A stretch of DNA of 42,043 bases from a virus. Where the stretch lies: IMG/VR virus record IMGVR_UViG_3300044730_001157, positions 1-42,043 of that record; one strand, given 5' to 3'. The position numbers were made by a program, and so were the translations under genes. The first letter of the stretch is position 1. Each line of letters starts with the position of its first letter. The notes beneath the pieces are model-generated. The model was not told the origin of the DNA. It ran no database searches and saw nothing but the letters and a program-made list of their open reading frames with translations. Below, piece after piece: positions 20,929-27,283 of this stretch.

Positions 20929-23025
20929 ATGAAATCTGAACTACACCACGGCGATTGCCTCGACGTACTCAAGACCCTTGCTGATTGCTCGGTCGATGCG
21001 ATTGTTACAGATCCTCCTTATGGGCTAGGTAAAGAACCTGACCCAGTTAAGGTAATGGCGGCGTGGATATTGCAGGGGTATTTTGAAGTTGAGGGAAGCG
21101 GGTTTATGGGCAAAAAATGGGATGCTTTTGTCCCACAACCTATTATCTGGAAGGAGGTTTTCAGGGTGCTTAAACCGGGCGGGCATTTACTAGCCTTTGC
21201 AGGCACTCGAACGCAAGACTGGATGGCAATGTCGCTGAGGTTCGCAGGCTTTGAAATCCGCGATATGATCGCTTGGGTATATGGTTCTGGGATGCCGAAA
21301 AGTTTTAATCTAAAACGATCTGGTGTATGCGATTGCGTTCCCGCTGAAAATGCGTTACCATACACCTATGAGCAAAACACCAAACACGACGTGCGACCAT
21401 TGCAAAATGGCGATTTACAAGAGGCCGGACCATATGGCAAGGAACGCGGGCAAATACTGCTCCCGATCCTGCCGAAACAAGGCGAACATAGTGACGGGCA
21501 AGCGCGGGAAAAACCCCAAGCTAGCGATGGAAAACAACCCGGCATGGAAGGGAGGGAGGTATATCGAGCCGAAGAAAGGGTATGTGATGATTCGCCGACC
21601 GGATCACCCCCGAGCCAGACAGAACGGCTACGTACTGGAGCATATCTTGGTAGCGGAAAAGATGCTAGGAAGGCCGCTGGCGGAAAACGAGGAGGTTCAT
21701 CACAAGAACAGGAACCGAGCGGACAACCGACCGGAAAACCTGCAAGTGTACTCAAGCCACTTGGAACACTGGATGAAGGAGCATTACACGGATGTGGCCA
21801 ATGCCAGAGATGCGGCAAGATCAAAAAAAACCTAGAGGGTTTCGGAACAACTCTCAAGCCTTCTCTAGAGCCGATCACGCTAGCCCGCAAGCCCCCTATC
21901 GGCACCGTTGCAACCAACGTACTCCAACACGGAACGGGCGGGCTGAATATCGATGGGTGCAGGGTGGGCGATACGGTGGAAACGTGGCCAGCTACTCGCA
22001 GTTATGGGGGCGGGACCGAATACGCATTCACCAACACGTCAAAGGGCGTCGTGAACTCTCAGCCAACAGGCAAAGCCCCAGAGGGCCGTTGGCCTGCTAA
22101 CTTCATCCATGATGGCAGCGAGGAGGTGCTGGCGTTGTTAGGTGAGGCGGCTAGGTTTTTTATGGTATTCCAAGATAAAGAGGTTTCTTTGCTGCCCGAA
22201 AACCAGTATAATGAGCAGCTAGCCAAAGGAGGACAATCATGGCAAACCAAAAACGACCCGCTATTTCTTGCGGGCACTGCGGCAAAGAGTTTATCCCTGC
22301 CAAAAGCACTAGAGTTTATTGCTCAAAGCGTTGTAGCAACCTCGGATCACCAAGAGGTAACAGCCTCAAGCGACTCGAAGGGACATTCTATTTACGTCAC
22401 TCAGGAAGAGTTAAAGACGCTTTGCGAGTGCGTTACCACAGCGATGATGATTTTAGGAAACGGGTTCTCGCTAGAGTCAAAGCTAGAAAAGCACACCCTG
22501 ACAAAAAGCCTTGTGAAAGTTGCGGCAACGAAAGAGCCGACAGGCATCACGACGATTATGACAAGCCTACTGAAATTCGATGGCTCTGCCGAAAATGCCA
22601 CATTGCGCATCACGCAAAAGAGTACGGCTCTTGGGGGACAGGCTTATCGAATCGCGTACATTCCTAAGGCAAGTCGCGACGACCGGGACGAAGGGTGCGG
22701 GGCGTTTGAGGAGCGAGGAAACAATCGGTACGGTGAGTTTAGAGGGACCGAAGATCATGCGCCAAAAACCCAAGACCACAACAAGAGCCGCAATCCTCAT
22801 CCAACGGTCAAACCTACCGACCTGATGCGTTACCTATGCCGACTTATCACACCGCCCGGCGGCATTGTCCTAGACCCCTTCATGGGCTCAGGATCGACCG
22901 GCAAGGCGGCGATGGCAGAGGGCTTTCGGTTCATCGGAATCGAACGGGAGGCCGAATACATCGAAATCGCTCGGGCTAGAATTTCCGCCGAGGCTGAAAA
23001 GCCAAGGCAGTTGAGTTTGTTTTGA
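20929..23025 (+). CDS. DNA methyltransferase (beta-type), ORF interrupted by two nested HNH genes
   Basis: 698 codons. N-terminal part: DPPYG at 28-32 (catalytic motif IV), FMGKKWD, KPGGHLLAFAGTR (82-94), GFEIRDMIAWVYGSGMPKS to 125. C-terminal: LDPFMGSGST at 651-657 (SAM motif I) and FIGIEREAEYIEIARARI. The order DPPY first, FxGxG last fits the beta group that methylates adenine N6 or cytosine N4. Residues about 128-301 and 412-576 do not look like the family: they are out-of-frame readings of two HNH genes. Removing them restores SFN-LEGFGTTLKP and ARFF-YIPKASRDDRDEG, both family-like. Whether the 698-residue protein is made, spliced or inactive is unclear. Confidence 0.85.
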   Translation: MKSELHHGDCLDVLKTLADCSVDAIVTDPPYGLGKEPDPVKVMAAWILQGYFEVEGSGFMGKKWDAFVPQPIIWKEVFRVLKPGGHLLAFAGTRTQDWMAMSLRFAGFEIRDMIAWVYGSGMPKSFNLKRSGVCDCVPAENALPYTYEQNTKHDVRPLQNGDLQEAGPYGKERGQILLPILPKQGEHSDGQAREKPQASDGKQPGMEGREVYRAEERVCDDSPTGSPPSQTERLRTGAYLGSGKDARKAAGGKRGGSSQEQEPSGQPTGKPASVLKPLGTLDEGALHGCGQCQRCGKIKKNLEGFGTTLKPSLEPITLARKPPIGTVATNVLQHGTGGLNIDGCRVGDTVETWPATRSYGGGTEYAFTNTSKGVVNSQPTGKAPEGRWPANFIHDGSEEVLALLGEAARFFMVFQDKEVSLLPENQYNEQLAKGGQSWQTKNDPLFLAGTAAKSLSLPKALEFIAQSVVATSDHQEVTASSDSKGHSIYVTQEELKTLCECVTTAMMILGNGFSLESKLEKHTLTKSLVKVAATKEPTGITTIMTSLLKFDGSAENATLRITQKSTALGGQAYRIAYIPKASRDDRDEGCGAFEERGNNRYGEFRGTEDHAPKTQDHNKSRNPHPTVKPTDLMRYLCRLITPPGGIVLDPFMGSGSTGKAAMAEGFRFIGIEREAEYIEIARARISAEAEKPRQLSLF
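21333..21361 (+). promoter_or_regulatory. Possible promoter of the first nested HNH gene
   Basis: TTGCGT, 17-base spacer, TACCAT; only 6 bases separate the -10 box from ATG 21368, so a transcript would be leaderless or nearly so. Each box is 4/6 to consensus, so the support is moderate. A similar layout with a better match is seen at 26364. Confidence 0.4.
21368..21835 (+). CDS. HNH homing endonuclease, nested +1 in the methyltransferase ORF
   Basis: 155 aa; ATG 21368 is chosen because the zinc finger starts right after it, though ATG 21323 is possible. N-terminal zinc finger C9xxC12 ... YCSRSC (C31, C35). Then the HNH fold: GYVLEHILVAEKMLGRPLAE, EEVHH (H111, H112), N114/N120, RPENLQVYSSHLEH. 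It cleaves DNA and would spread its own gene. It lies entirely inside the methyltransferase ORF in another frame. It ends at A8-CCTAG; a -1 slip there would enter the methyltransferase frame. Confidence 0.85.
   Translation: MSKTPNTTCDHCKMAIYKRPDHMARNAGKYCSRSCRNKANIVTGKRGKNPKLAMENNPAWKGGRYIEPKKGYVMIRRPDHPRARQNGYVLEHILVAEKMLGRPLAENEEVHHKNRNRADNRPENLQVYSSHLEHWMKEHYTDVANARDAARSKKT
22207..22232 (+). promoter_or_regulatory. -10 box and strong ribosome site of the second nested HNH gene
   Basis: TATAAT (22207-22212) is a perfect -10 hexamer, although no good -35 is seen at 16-18 bases upstream. AAAGGAGG (22225-22232) is near-perfect Shine-Dalgarno, six bases before ATG 22239. Both lie inside the methyltransferase ORF and are not needed for that frame, arguing for independent expression of the nested gene. 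Confidence 0.6.
22239..22667 (+). CDS. HNH-type zinc endonuclease-like protein, nested in the methyltransferase ORF
   Basis: 142 aa, in the -1 frame of the methyltransferase. Two zinc modules: CGHCGKEFIPAKSTRVYCSKRC (C11, C14, C28, C32) and CESCGNERADRHHDDYDKP...WLCRKCH (C92, C95, H103, H104, C117, C120, H121). The second is the treble-clef HNH-like type common in phages (HHDDYxKPxxxxWLCxxCH). Endonuclease function is likely but not certain. It has its own ribosome site and a perfect -10 box. It is a different family from the first nested gene, so the two insertions were independent. Confidence 0.75.
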   Translation: MANQKRPAISCGHCGKEFIPAKSTRVYCSKRCSNLGSPRGNSLKRLEGTFYLRHSGRVKDALRVRYHSDDDFRKRVLARVKARKAHPDKKPCESCGNERADRHHDDYDKPTEIRWLCRKCHIAHHAKEYGSWGTGLSNRVHS

Positions 23026-23855: not shown

Positions 23856-24614
23856 ATGGCCGGTGATTGGATTAAGATCGAGCATGGGCTATTGGGCAAG
23901 CCCGAAGTGATGCTGCTGGCCGACGTTCTTGACGCTTCGCCCCATGAAGTGGTAGGGCATTTAGTCGCGTTTTGGCTATGGGTCGACCTGAATTTGTCCC
24001 CAGATTGTCCCCAAGTGAAGGGGACAAAAAAGGGACTAGATAGGGTCGCAGGGAGGGACGGGTTTTCCGATGCGTTGATTTCGGTGGGCTGGTTATACGT
24101 CGAGGATGGCGTGGTTTCGATTCCTGGGTACGAGGTTCACCTGTCGAAAAGCGCGAAAGAACGTGCAAAAGGCCAGAAAAAGAAGGCTATGCAGCGGATA
24201 AAGCTGTCCCCTGAGAAGGGGGACAAAAAGAGGGACAAAACCGGGACGGAACAGGGGACCAGAGAAGAGAAGAGAAGAGAAGAGTATTCAAATATAGACA
24301 CATTGCCCGAATGGCTCAAAAAAGATTGGGTACGATGGCTGGACTTCCGATTCGCCAAAGACGGGCAGTGGATGCCGGAGGCCCAAGCCGATGCGGTGAT
24401 TATGGACTTGCTCCGAAGGGGCGAAGCCAAGGCCCTAAAAGACATCGAGTTTTCGATCCGCATTGGGGCAAAGAACATTTGCCACGATGACGGCGGGCAA
24501 GGCTTGCTAAAGCCGGTCGGCGGGTCGGCGGCAGGATCCCAAACCGGGAGGAAGCTAACCAACGCAGAAAAGACCCTTAAGCTCATCGAGGAGATGAACA
24601 ATGGAAACGTCTGA
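23856..24614 (+). CDS. Replication initiator-like protein with internal origin
   Basis: 252 aa; GGAG at 23844-23847 supports ATG 23856. Residues 1-100 (GDWIKIEHGLLGKPEVMLLA, VVGHLVAFWLWVDLN, LISVGWLYVEDG) resemble the winged-helix N-domain of phage replisome organisers. A charged low-complexity linker (KGDKKRDKTGTEQ, EEKRREEY) follows, then a helical C-domain (WLKKDWVRWLDFRFA, AEKTLKLIEEMNN). The DNA coding for the linker has iterons and an AGAGA microsatellite, as in lambda O, whose gene contains the origin. It should bind the iterons and recruit the helicase machinery. Confidence 0.7.
   Translation: MAGDWIKIEHGLLGKPEVMLLADVLDASPHEVVGHLVAFWLWVDLNLSPDCPQVKGTKKGLDRVAGRDGFSDALISVGWLYVEDGVVSIPGYEVHLSKSAKERAKGQKKKAMQRIKLSPEKGDKKRDKTGTEQGTREEKRREEYSNIDTLPEWLKKDWVRWLDFRFAKDGQWMPEAQADAVIMDLLRRGEAKALKDIEFSIRIGAKNICHDDGGQGLLKPVGGSAAGSQTGRKLTNAEKTLKLIEEMNNGNV
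23995..24300. other. Candidate replication origin: iterons, purine tract and AT-rich DNA
   Basis: Two TGTCCCC-N7-GGGGACA inverted modules lie at 24006-24026 and 24205-24225, 199 bp apart. An extra TGTCCCC at 23995 is 11 bp before the first. GGGAC follows at 24021 and 24032, and at 24220, 24232, 24243 and 24255, i.e. spacing of 11-12 bp, so they fall on one helix face. After them come the AGAGA tandem repeat (24261-24284) and an AT-rich stretch, which fits a melting region. They sit within the initiator gene, a classic arrangement. Confidence 0.65.
24261..24284 (+). repeat. AGAGA tandem repeat
   Basis: Four full AGAGA units plus a part, coding for REEKRREE in the initiator linker. Pure-purine strand next to iterons; may bend or unwind the DNA and may vary in copy number by slippage. 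Confidence 0.8.
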
Positions 24615-25068
24615 GAATCGAGAATTTTTTACGAGAATCGCCATGATCCATTTTCCGAGTCTTGGCACTTATCTCAACAAAGAAACCAGCAGCGTACTTG
24701 GGACGATCGACGCATGGGCGATGACGCTACGGGACATTACAACCCAGGAGGCAATCTCAGTGGTCTATCGATGGTCCAAGGACGAGCTACCAAGGCCTCA
24801 ATACTACGAACTCGGCGATTTCGCTTTGCATCTTCGAGCGGTTGTCTTGCAGGATCGCGTCAACGCTCGCAAGACGCAACTGGTTGACATGATTCGCAGC
24901 CGGGAGGAATCGACCAAGGGCTACAGCCATGTTTCGCTACGTCCATTCATAGCCAGGGTGCTTGAATCCGGCGAACAATGCAGGCTTGGCAAGATCACAA
25001 AGCAAGAACACTACGCGACGCGGGACCAAGTGCTAGCGGAACTAGCAGCGGCTCAGGTGCGACGATGA
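24601..25068 (+). CDS. Putative helicase loader or replication accessory protein
   Basis: 155 aa, 14-base overlap with the initiator. All-helical: REFFTRIAMIHFPSLGTYLN, IDAWAMTLRDITTQEAISVV, YYELGDFALHLRAVVLQDRV. No Walker motifs. Its place after an O-like gene suggests a role such as lambda P (bringing host DnaB), but no sequence motif confirms it. Confidence 0.5.
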   Translation: METSENREFFTRIAMIHFPSLGTYLNKETSSVLGTIDAWAMTLRDITTQEAISVVYRWSKDELPRPQYYELGDFALHLRAVVLQDRVNARKTQLVDMIRSREESTKGYSHVSLRPFIARVLESGEQCRLGKITKQEHYATRDQVLAELAAAQVRR

Positions 25069-26401: not shown

Positions 26402-27283
26402 ATGCCAGCACAAAGAAAATGGACCGACTCAGATATTCAGTTCCTCAAGGATAACTACCCATCGAAAGGGAAAGCCTTTTGCTGCAAAGCTCTTGGCAAG
26501 ACCGACGGCGCAGTAAGGCAAATGGCTAGCGATCTAAAGTTAAAAGCAAGCAGGGAATCTGAGTTTTTCAGGGACTGGCAATCAAGGGCGGCTAAGTCAA
26601 AGGTCGGCAAAAAAAGACCGTCTCAGTCCCTAGTTATGAAGCGTCTTCATCTAGAAGGCAAGCTTCAAAAAAACGAACAGCAAAGGAAGGCTATAAGTGA
26701 AAGAAATAAGAAAATGTGGAAGGAAAGAGAGCACCCAAAAGGCATGAAAGGCAAAAAACACAGCAAGGAAACTCTCGCTAAACTTTCCGAAATTTCTTTG
26801 GAGAGAGCAAAAAACACTACCGATGAGCAATGGCTTGCAAGAACAGTCAAATCGCAAGCTACGAGAGAAAAAAGAGGGACGCAATTACCTTGCAGGACTA
26901 ACGTAACTTGGAAAGCGGCTTGGCGCGAAATCGGAGGAACCAGGAAGTTTTATCGGTCAAGGTGGGAGGCAAACTACGCAAGGTATCTGGAATTCTTAAA
27001 GCAGCAAGGGAAGATTAAAGACTGGAAGCACGAGCCCAAGACGTTTTGGTTTGAGGGCATTAAGCGTGGGTGCGTAAGCTACTTGCCTGACTTTCTCGTC
27101 ATTGAGAACGATGGATCGGAGGCTTACCACGAGGTCAAGGGATGGATGGACGATAGATCCAAAACCAAAATAAGGCGAATGGCAAAGTACTTCCCTAGCG
27201 TAAATTTGATTGTGATAGATTCCAAGGCGTACAAGGCGCTTCAAAAAACAGCGGCAGCGATTGTTCCCGGATGGGATTCCTAG
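26402..27283 (+). CDS. Homing endonuclease with PD-(D/E)XK domain
   Basis: 293 aa. N-terminal helix-turn-helix like (KWTDSDIQFLKDNYPSKGKA, residues 6-45), NUMOD3-like motif HPKGMKGKKHSKETLAKLSE (111-130), and a C-terminal nuclease with E190 in SRWEANYARYLE, PD at 229-230 and EVK at 244-246, the T7 endonuclease I-like pattern. It binds DNA with its modules and cleaves with the C-domain. It replaced the rest of rusA. It has its own promoter and is Lys-rich, unlike its neighbours, suggesting recent transfer. Confidence 0.8.
   Translation: MPAQRKWTDSDIQFLKDNYPSKGKAFCCKALGKTDGAVRQMASDLKLKASRESEFFRDWQSRAAKSKVGKKRPSQSLVMKRLHLEGKLQKNEQQRKAISERNKKMWKEREHPKGMKGKKHSKETLAKLSEISLERAKNTTDEQWLARTVKSQATREKRGTQLPCRTNVTWKAAWREIGGTRKFYRSRWEANYARYLEFLKQQGKIKDWKHEPKTFWFEGIKRGCVSYLPDFLVIENDGSEAYHEVKGWMDDRSKTKIRRMAKYFPSVNLIVIDSKAYKALQKTAAAIVPGWDS

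Follow-up and report, generated by a model that had tools for sequence, protein, structure and literature searches.

In lambdoid and Stx phages, the replication origin, ori-lambda, is located in the middle of the O gene and its iterons are bound by the O protein that the gene encodes (PMC7466680). The AT-rich region of the lambda origin includes a run of 18 purines, AAAAGAAAAAAGAAAAGA, that follows soon after the last iteron on the strand of the iterons. A second type of in-gene origin is that of the RepA_N initiators, as the Rep proteins of pSK41 and pSK1 have a winged-helix N-terminal domain of about 120 aa and a separate C-terminal domain, and the Rep boxes are situated in DNA coding for a dispensable linker (PMC5703833). 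The Rac prophage has an active origin, oriJ (PMC3945230).

The window studied here is the whole stretch of 42,043 nucleotides of a viral record (IMG/VR IMGVR_UViG_3300044730_001157). Based on its sequence and that of its relatives, positions 23995-24305 very probably constitute a phage replication origin situated inside the coding sequence of its cognate initiator, for which we propose a scheme of binding, opening and loading below. The features of the region are as follows.

23856..24614, (+) strand: replication initiator coding sequence, 252 aa, start MAGDWIK
23995..24001, (-) strand: outer half-site TGTCCCC of site A, 11 bp ahead of the dyad
24006..24026: site A dyad, TGTCCCCAAGTGAAGGGGACA, with a 19-bp core GTCCCC-N7-GGGGAC
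24032..24036, (+) strand: half-site GGGAC of site A, +11 step
24055..24059, (+) strand: half-site GGGAC of site A, +23 step
24147..24206, (+) strand: codons of the putative recognition helix, aa 98-117, in which residues 106, 110 and 113 track box type
24205..24225: site B dyad, TGTCCCCTGAGAAGGGGGACA, of the same TGTCCCC-N7-GGGGACA form as site A
24232..24236, (+) strand: half-site GGGAC of site B, +12 step
24243..24247, (+) strand: half-site GGGAC of site B, +11 step
24254..24259, (+) strand: final half-site GGGGAC of site B, abutting a C and the purine tract
24261..24284, (+) strand: purine tract (AGAGA)n, AGAGAAGAGAAGAGAAGAGAAGAG, 24 nt, candidate opening/helicase-entry element
24285..24305: AT-rich DNA after the tract, by base composition read from the sequence
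24601..25068, (+) strand: downstream gene (155 aa) that overlaps the end of the initiator gene; its position alone makes it a candidate helicase loader

The layout resembles that of lambda O (NC_001416) in having in-gene iterons with an AT-rich or purine-rich region directly after the last of them. There are also differences: lambda has four separate 18-bp iterons and an A-rich run, in place of which the window has a 19-bp dyad plus half-sites spaced 11-12 bp apart and an (AGAGA)n tract, respectively; the window also has a second site (A) within the DNA-binding domain. By sequence, the initiator could not be assigned to lambda O (best BLASTP E 1.1). In lambda the next gene is the helicase loader, whereas ORF 24601-25068 had no PHROG or Pfam assignment and no fold match, and neither family nor fold searches supported it as a G39P, DnaC or P loader. 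In several relatives the same slot holds a DnaB helicase, a DnaC-like or P-like loader, or a primase. The likeness to RepA_N is one of position, with the candidate origin in linker DNA between the DNA-binding and C-terminal domains; the window differs in being a phage gene, in its box geometry and in its purine tract, and the RepA_N Pfam family (PF06970) gave no match at E <= 1.

The ORF that the original prediction had called initiator-like matched PHROG 2509, "replication initiation protein", in a profile search (E 2.3e-37, aa 1-152). The phage kin in this PHROG include Rac YdaU, epsilon15, Xanthomonas CP2 and Pseudomonas phages. Rac YdaU, epsilon15 and CP2 share with the window the protein family, the type of site-B array and the purine tract, and differ in box letters (GTAACGC in Rac, GTCCGC in epsilon15 and GTCCCC in the window). 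Rac YdaU has GTAACGC dyads at both A and B and a variant of the purine tract. In its proposed mode of action the locus resembles lambda O and RepA_N origins; in identity it is a PHROG 2509 initiator.

The protein appears to consist of a winged-helix-like N-terminal DNA-binding half, a linker and an exchangeable C-terminal half. The AF2 model of the DNA-binding half (pLDDT 89) has a winged-helix-like core plus the helix at aa 98-117, and the linker directly after this helix (aa 117-143) is coded by site B and the tract. Among solved structures, the DNA-binding domain had no match at Foldseek E <= 0.001 and showed common winged-helix likenesses only. The fold matches included winged-helix regulators (CRP family, Z up to 6.2) and the pSK1-type initiators 5kbj, 4pql and 4pt7, the latter at Z 4.7-4.8, which is weak and at the level of a common arrangement. 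Among viral models, the matches were N-domains of phage replisome organisers.

The repeats in the initiator gene are real and non-random. The two TGTCCCC-N7-GGGGACA copies originally reported are located exactly at 24006-24026 and 24205-24225, and the further GGGAC boxes at 11-12 bp steps, the AGAGA tract and the AT-rich DNA said to follow them were all confirmed by their coordinates. By outer base, the half-sites of site A are at 23996(-), 24007(-), 24025(+), 24036(+) and 24059(+), and those of site B at 24206(-), 24224(+), 24236(+), 24247(+) and 24259(+), with steps of 11, 11-12 and 23 bp in addition to the 19-bp dyads. No third match to the dyad was found in the 42 kb at up to 3 mismatches. 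All three copies of TGTCCCC in the window (23995, 24006 and 24205), and two of the three copies of GGGGACA, are inside one 230-bp stretch. Protein-preserving codon shuffles of the gene gave a mean of 3.8 GGGAC/GTCCC words against the 10 observed (0/5000 reached 10) and a mean of 0.12 dyads against the 2 observed (14/5000 reached 2). The purine tract was not significant in the window gene alone, being reached in 794/5000 shuffles, and became significant across the relatives, unlike in this single gene.

To place these elements in a wider context, relatives were drawn from IMG/VR and bacterial genomes, giving 264 usable genes that clustered at 80% DNA identity into 132 representatives. The purine tract was present in 131 of these, with the site-B array ahead of it in most. 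The exception, L048, has an HNH endonuclease-like segment (L048:3001-3920) in place of site B and the tract, perhaps a homing element residing in an origin.

The geometry of the array was mostly constant across the representatives. Inverted-repeat spans peaked at 19 and 21 bp, with counts of 117 and 93 where protein-preserving shuffles gave 18 and 16, and a second peak at 30 and 32 bp corresponded to the next half-site. With the representatives aligned on the tract, half-sites ended at -1, -12/-13, -24/-25 and -36, while the dyad's left arm started mostly at -31/-32, -43 or -55; the unpaired half-sites had one orientation and were spaced at steps of about 11.7 bp. In most relatives, site A had the same position and the same 19-bp core with other letters. 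The box types were GTTAC (67 representatives), CGGAC (26), GTGAC (22), TCTAC (6), GGGAC (4, the type of the window) and CTGAC (1). When the half-sites of A and B were read independently, they agreed in 64 of the 131 genes, compared with a mean of 22 and a maximum of 34 in 2000 permutations, so that the two sites change their letters together. The CGGAC subfamily, that of epsilon15, has site B only and is without the site A dyad, which indicates that site A is not essential to the design; it may be accessory and serve as a spare array, for control or for pairing.

The tract was read in frames 0, 2 and 1 in 76, 49 and 6 representatives, respectively, indicating conservation at the level of the DNA. 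In the boxes and tract, ten close relatives of the window showed 0.070 synonymous differences per comparison, against 0.263 elsewhere, and none of 20000 permutations was as low. In the 131 representatives, GC content dropped from a gene-wide 55% to 30-39% over the 30 nt that begin with the tract. The junction AC-C-AGAGA was the most conserved DNA of the PHROG 2509 family.

We then compared the box letters with the protein. The highest mutual information with box type was found for residues 106, 110 and 113, which are on one face of helix 98-117 and outranked even the columns coded by site A itself; box words overlapped codon 106 in 2 and codon 110 in 1 of 126 representatives. Box type changed at least 27 times on a tree built with the helix and site A left out, which is poorly resolved. 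TCTAC boxes went with K-Q-W at 106/110/113 in all six representatives, which are scattered over the tree, and GTTAC boxes mostly with V at 110. Of the 30 representatives with xGGAC boxes, 28 have D or E at 106. In one fully supported clade, two loci with GTTAC boxes (L209 and L301) have T-V-H and one with CGGAC boxes (L244) has D-K-D. The window itself fits imperfectly: it has G106-K110-Q113, whereas position 106 is E or D in the GGGAC loci closest to it.

Out-of-sample loci were retrieved by box and tract DNA alone. Those retrieved by GTCTACCAGAGAAG... had KQW in nine of nine independent TCTAC loci (Fisher p 2e-9, with kinship not corrected for), and the three-residue rule was correct in 39 of 42 new loci. 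Strict phylogenetic contrasts provided one or two well-supported independent pairs per trait, which is too few for significance; nearly all of the well-supported contrasts were in the expected direction. No description of such a box-residue code was found in the open-access papers searched. The original prediction was of an in-gene, lambda O-like origin bound by the encoded initiator, to be doubted if relatives kept the protein and lost the box spacing. The relatives hold the spacing and change the letters along with the matching helix residues, and by this comparison of sequences the predicted reading is the one best supported.

Natural recombinants were found among the relatives. Four loci (L009, L010, L013 and L014) have the C-terminal half of the window, with about 90% DNA identity from the tract on, and a differing DNA-binding half with GTTAC boxes. 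In L014, the upstream DNA is in part 78-100% identical to the window, and the block that differs starts shortly ahead of the gene and ends at the tract. The swap is the other way round in L015, with its DNA-binding half and boxes about 90% as in the window and its C-terminal half about 50%. The joints of L014 and L015 are both at the tract, at window position about 24261, which indicates that the DNA-binding half and the boxes travel as one cassette. A working natural precedent for such a swap is plasmid pPR9, in which a block of roughly 500 bp comprising the N-terminal domain of Rep and the origin was exchanged for phage-like sequence (PMC5703833).

A blind scan of viral contigs for the exact tract AGAGAAGAGAAGAGAAGAG gave 120 contigs among the matches listed, 80 of which carried it in the PHROG 2509-type initiator family. 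The other 40 included two cut copies of the window's initiator family (L291 and L293), four near copies of a replication-matching ORF and four matches in short or non-coding DNA. Of the 30 non-family tract ORFs scanned, 23 matched replication initiation, primosomal, replisome-organiser or replication-protein PHROGs and seven had no family match. Counting the family members, replication-matching ORFs and copies, about 109 of the 120 listed tracts are in replication-initiation-type genes. Several non-family ORFs have repeats of their own just upstream of the tract (e.g., L217, L225, L228, L262, L312 and L328), and repeated 6-mers before the tract were significant in 9 of the 27 tested, so that own iterons are common in these ORFs, not universal. 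As the viral fold matches of the window's DNA-binding half were N-domains of replisome organisers, the tract-bearing families may be remote kin and not unrelated. Across L215-L334, the tract recurs in many other phage initiator families and is a candidate general origin marker. In the open-access literature searched, nothing relevant was found on AGAGAAGAG tracts or their coded peptide in phage origins.

Based on these findings, we propose that the helix at aa 98-117 of the N-terminal half would read the half-site, GGGAC in the window, in the major groove, with two protomers on each 19-bp dyad. Extra protomers could occupy the half-sites about 11-12 bp apart, in an array ending flush at the (AGAGA)n tract. 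The assembled array would then open the purine tract and the AT-rich DNA beyond it, and the C-terminal half would recruit a helicase or loader, as lambda O and P do. Direct binding, the dimer state, tract opening, helicase loading and direction are what we infer within this scheme.

Four other explanations of the repeats were considered. The one we weigh most, while still thinking it unlikely, is that the tract is chiefly a recombination seam or a product of slippage, such that its conservation would be uninformative on replication. In its favour, the tract is where L014 and L015 are joined, and the coded peptide REEKRREE is simple and linker-like. However, the tract is in fixed register to the last half-site (AC-C-AGAGA), and it occurs in three reading frames and in the initiator genes of other families. 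Seam and replication element may also both hold at once. It is less probable again, and in our view quite improbable, that the boxes are operators through which the initiator or another regulator represses its own gene, with the origin elsewhere. The dyads have typical operator shapes, the fold matches include the CRP-family regulators, and site A, missing in one subfamily, could be a regulatory add-on. Yet the sites are 140-400 bp inside the gene, where there was no promoter-like match above chance, the array is flush with a conserved purine tract followed by low-GC DNA as in the lambda ori layout, and most of the other tract-bearing ORFs matched replication initiation, primosomal or replication-protein families (23/30).

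A role of the dyads as mRNA hairpins controlling translation or decay of the initiator message seems very improbable. Although both segments folded better than shuffles (z -3.8 and -3.6), any perfect dyad folds in this way, the unpaired one-orientation half-sites at about 11.7-bp steps would have no role in a hairpin, and hairpins need neither the sharing of letters between A and B nor letters that track three helix residues. There is next to no chance, in our estimation, that the repeats arise from a need of the protein for a repeated LSP/KGTKK motif. A similar LSP peptide had been noticed at both modules in the original prediction; this was correct for the copies of TGTCCCC at 23995 and 24205, which are in frame 1 and read LSP, and did not hold for that at 24006, which is in frame 0 and reads CPQ. 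The boxes of the window gene occupy all three reading frames, as does the tract across the family, synonymous positions are constrained, and codon shuffles fail to recreate the words. An origin bound by its own initiator remains our preferred reading.

Two further suggestions made at the outset concerned DNA looping and base composition. The distance of 199 bp between the two modules is correct in the window; the proposal that A and B are looped together by helical phase gained no support, since A-B distances varied widely among the relatives, being mostly 184 to 251 bp, and the distinct values were unphased (Rayleigh p about 0.5). Cumulative GC skew, which had been put forward as a check, showed no turn at 24 kb, and it is uninformative as an origin marker here because the genes mostly run one way.

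The origins of most phages known from metagenomes alone are unknown. The junction of a half-site AC-C-AGAGAAGAGAAGAG points to a likely origin from sequence alone, and residues 106, 110 and 113 allow a guess at the box letters. As relatives exchange boxes and DNA-reading part together at constant spacing, the pairing of protein and box becomes predictable. We consider it about an even chance that phage initiators of this fold form a modular, evolvable origin system, with a three-residue code on one helix that sets the box letters, a cassette of boxes and reading domain on a fixed 19 + 11-12 bp scaffold, and an (AGAGA)n element, common to several other initiator families, for strand opening or helicase entry and for crossover. 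Such naturally occurring initiator/box pairs form a series in which to ask how replication specificity can shift while function is retained, and what combinations of initiators a single cell can carry. That other initiator families have this tract as well points to a common step following binding, which the papers searched do not name.

Some additional features were noted in the course of these analyses. Five loci (L223, L227, L232, L240 and L329) form a long-branch subgroup with overlapping boxes, e.g., CGTAACG...CGTTACG, in another register; their tract is about 90 nt later in the gene and their geometry is unlike the 19-bp dyad. In the window, positions 20929-23025 encode a 698-aa DNA methyltransferase (N6_N4_Mtase, PHROG 67) with its conserved parts towards both ends and a long middle segment without other Pfam match. 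The ORF at 26402-27283 has a C-terminal part that is DUF1064 or Holliday-junction-resolvase-like and an N-terminal part with weak matches to transcription-regulator and homing-endonuclease families.
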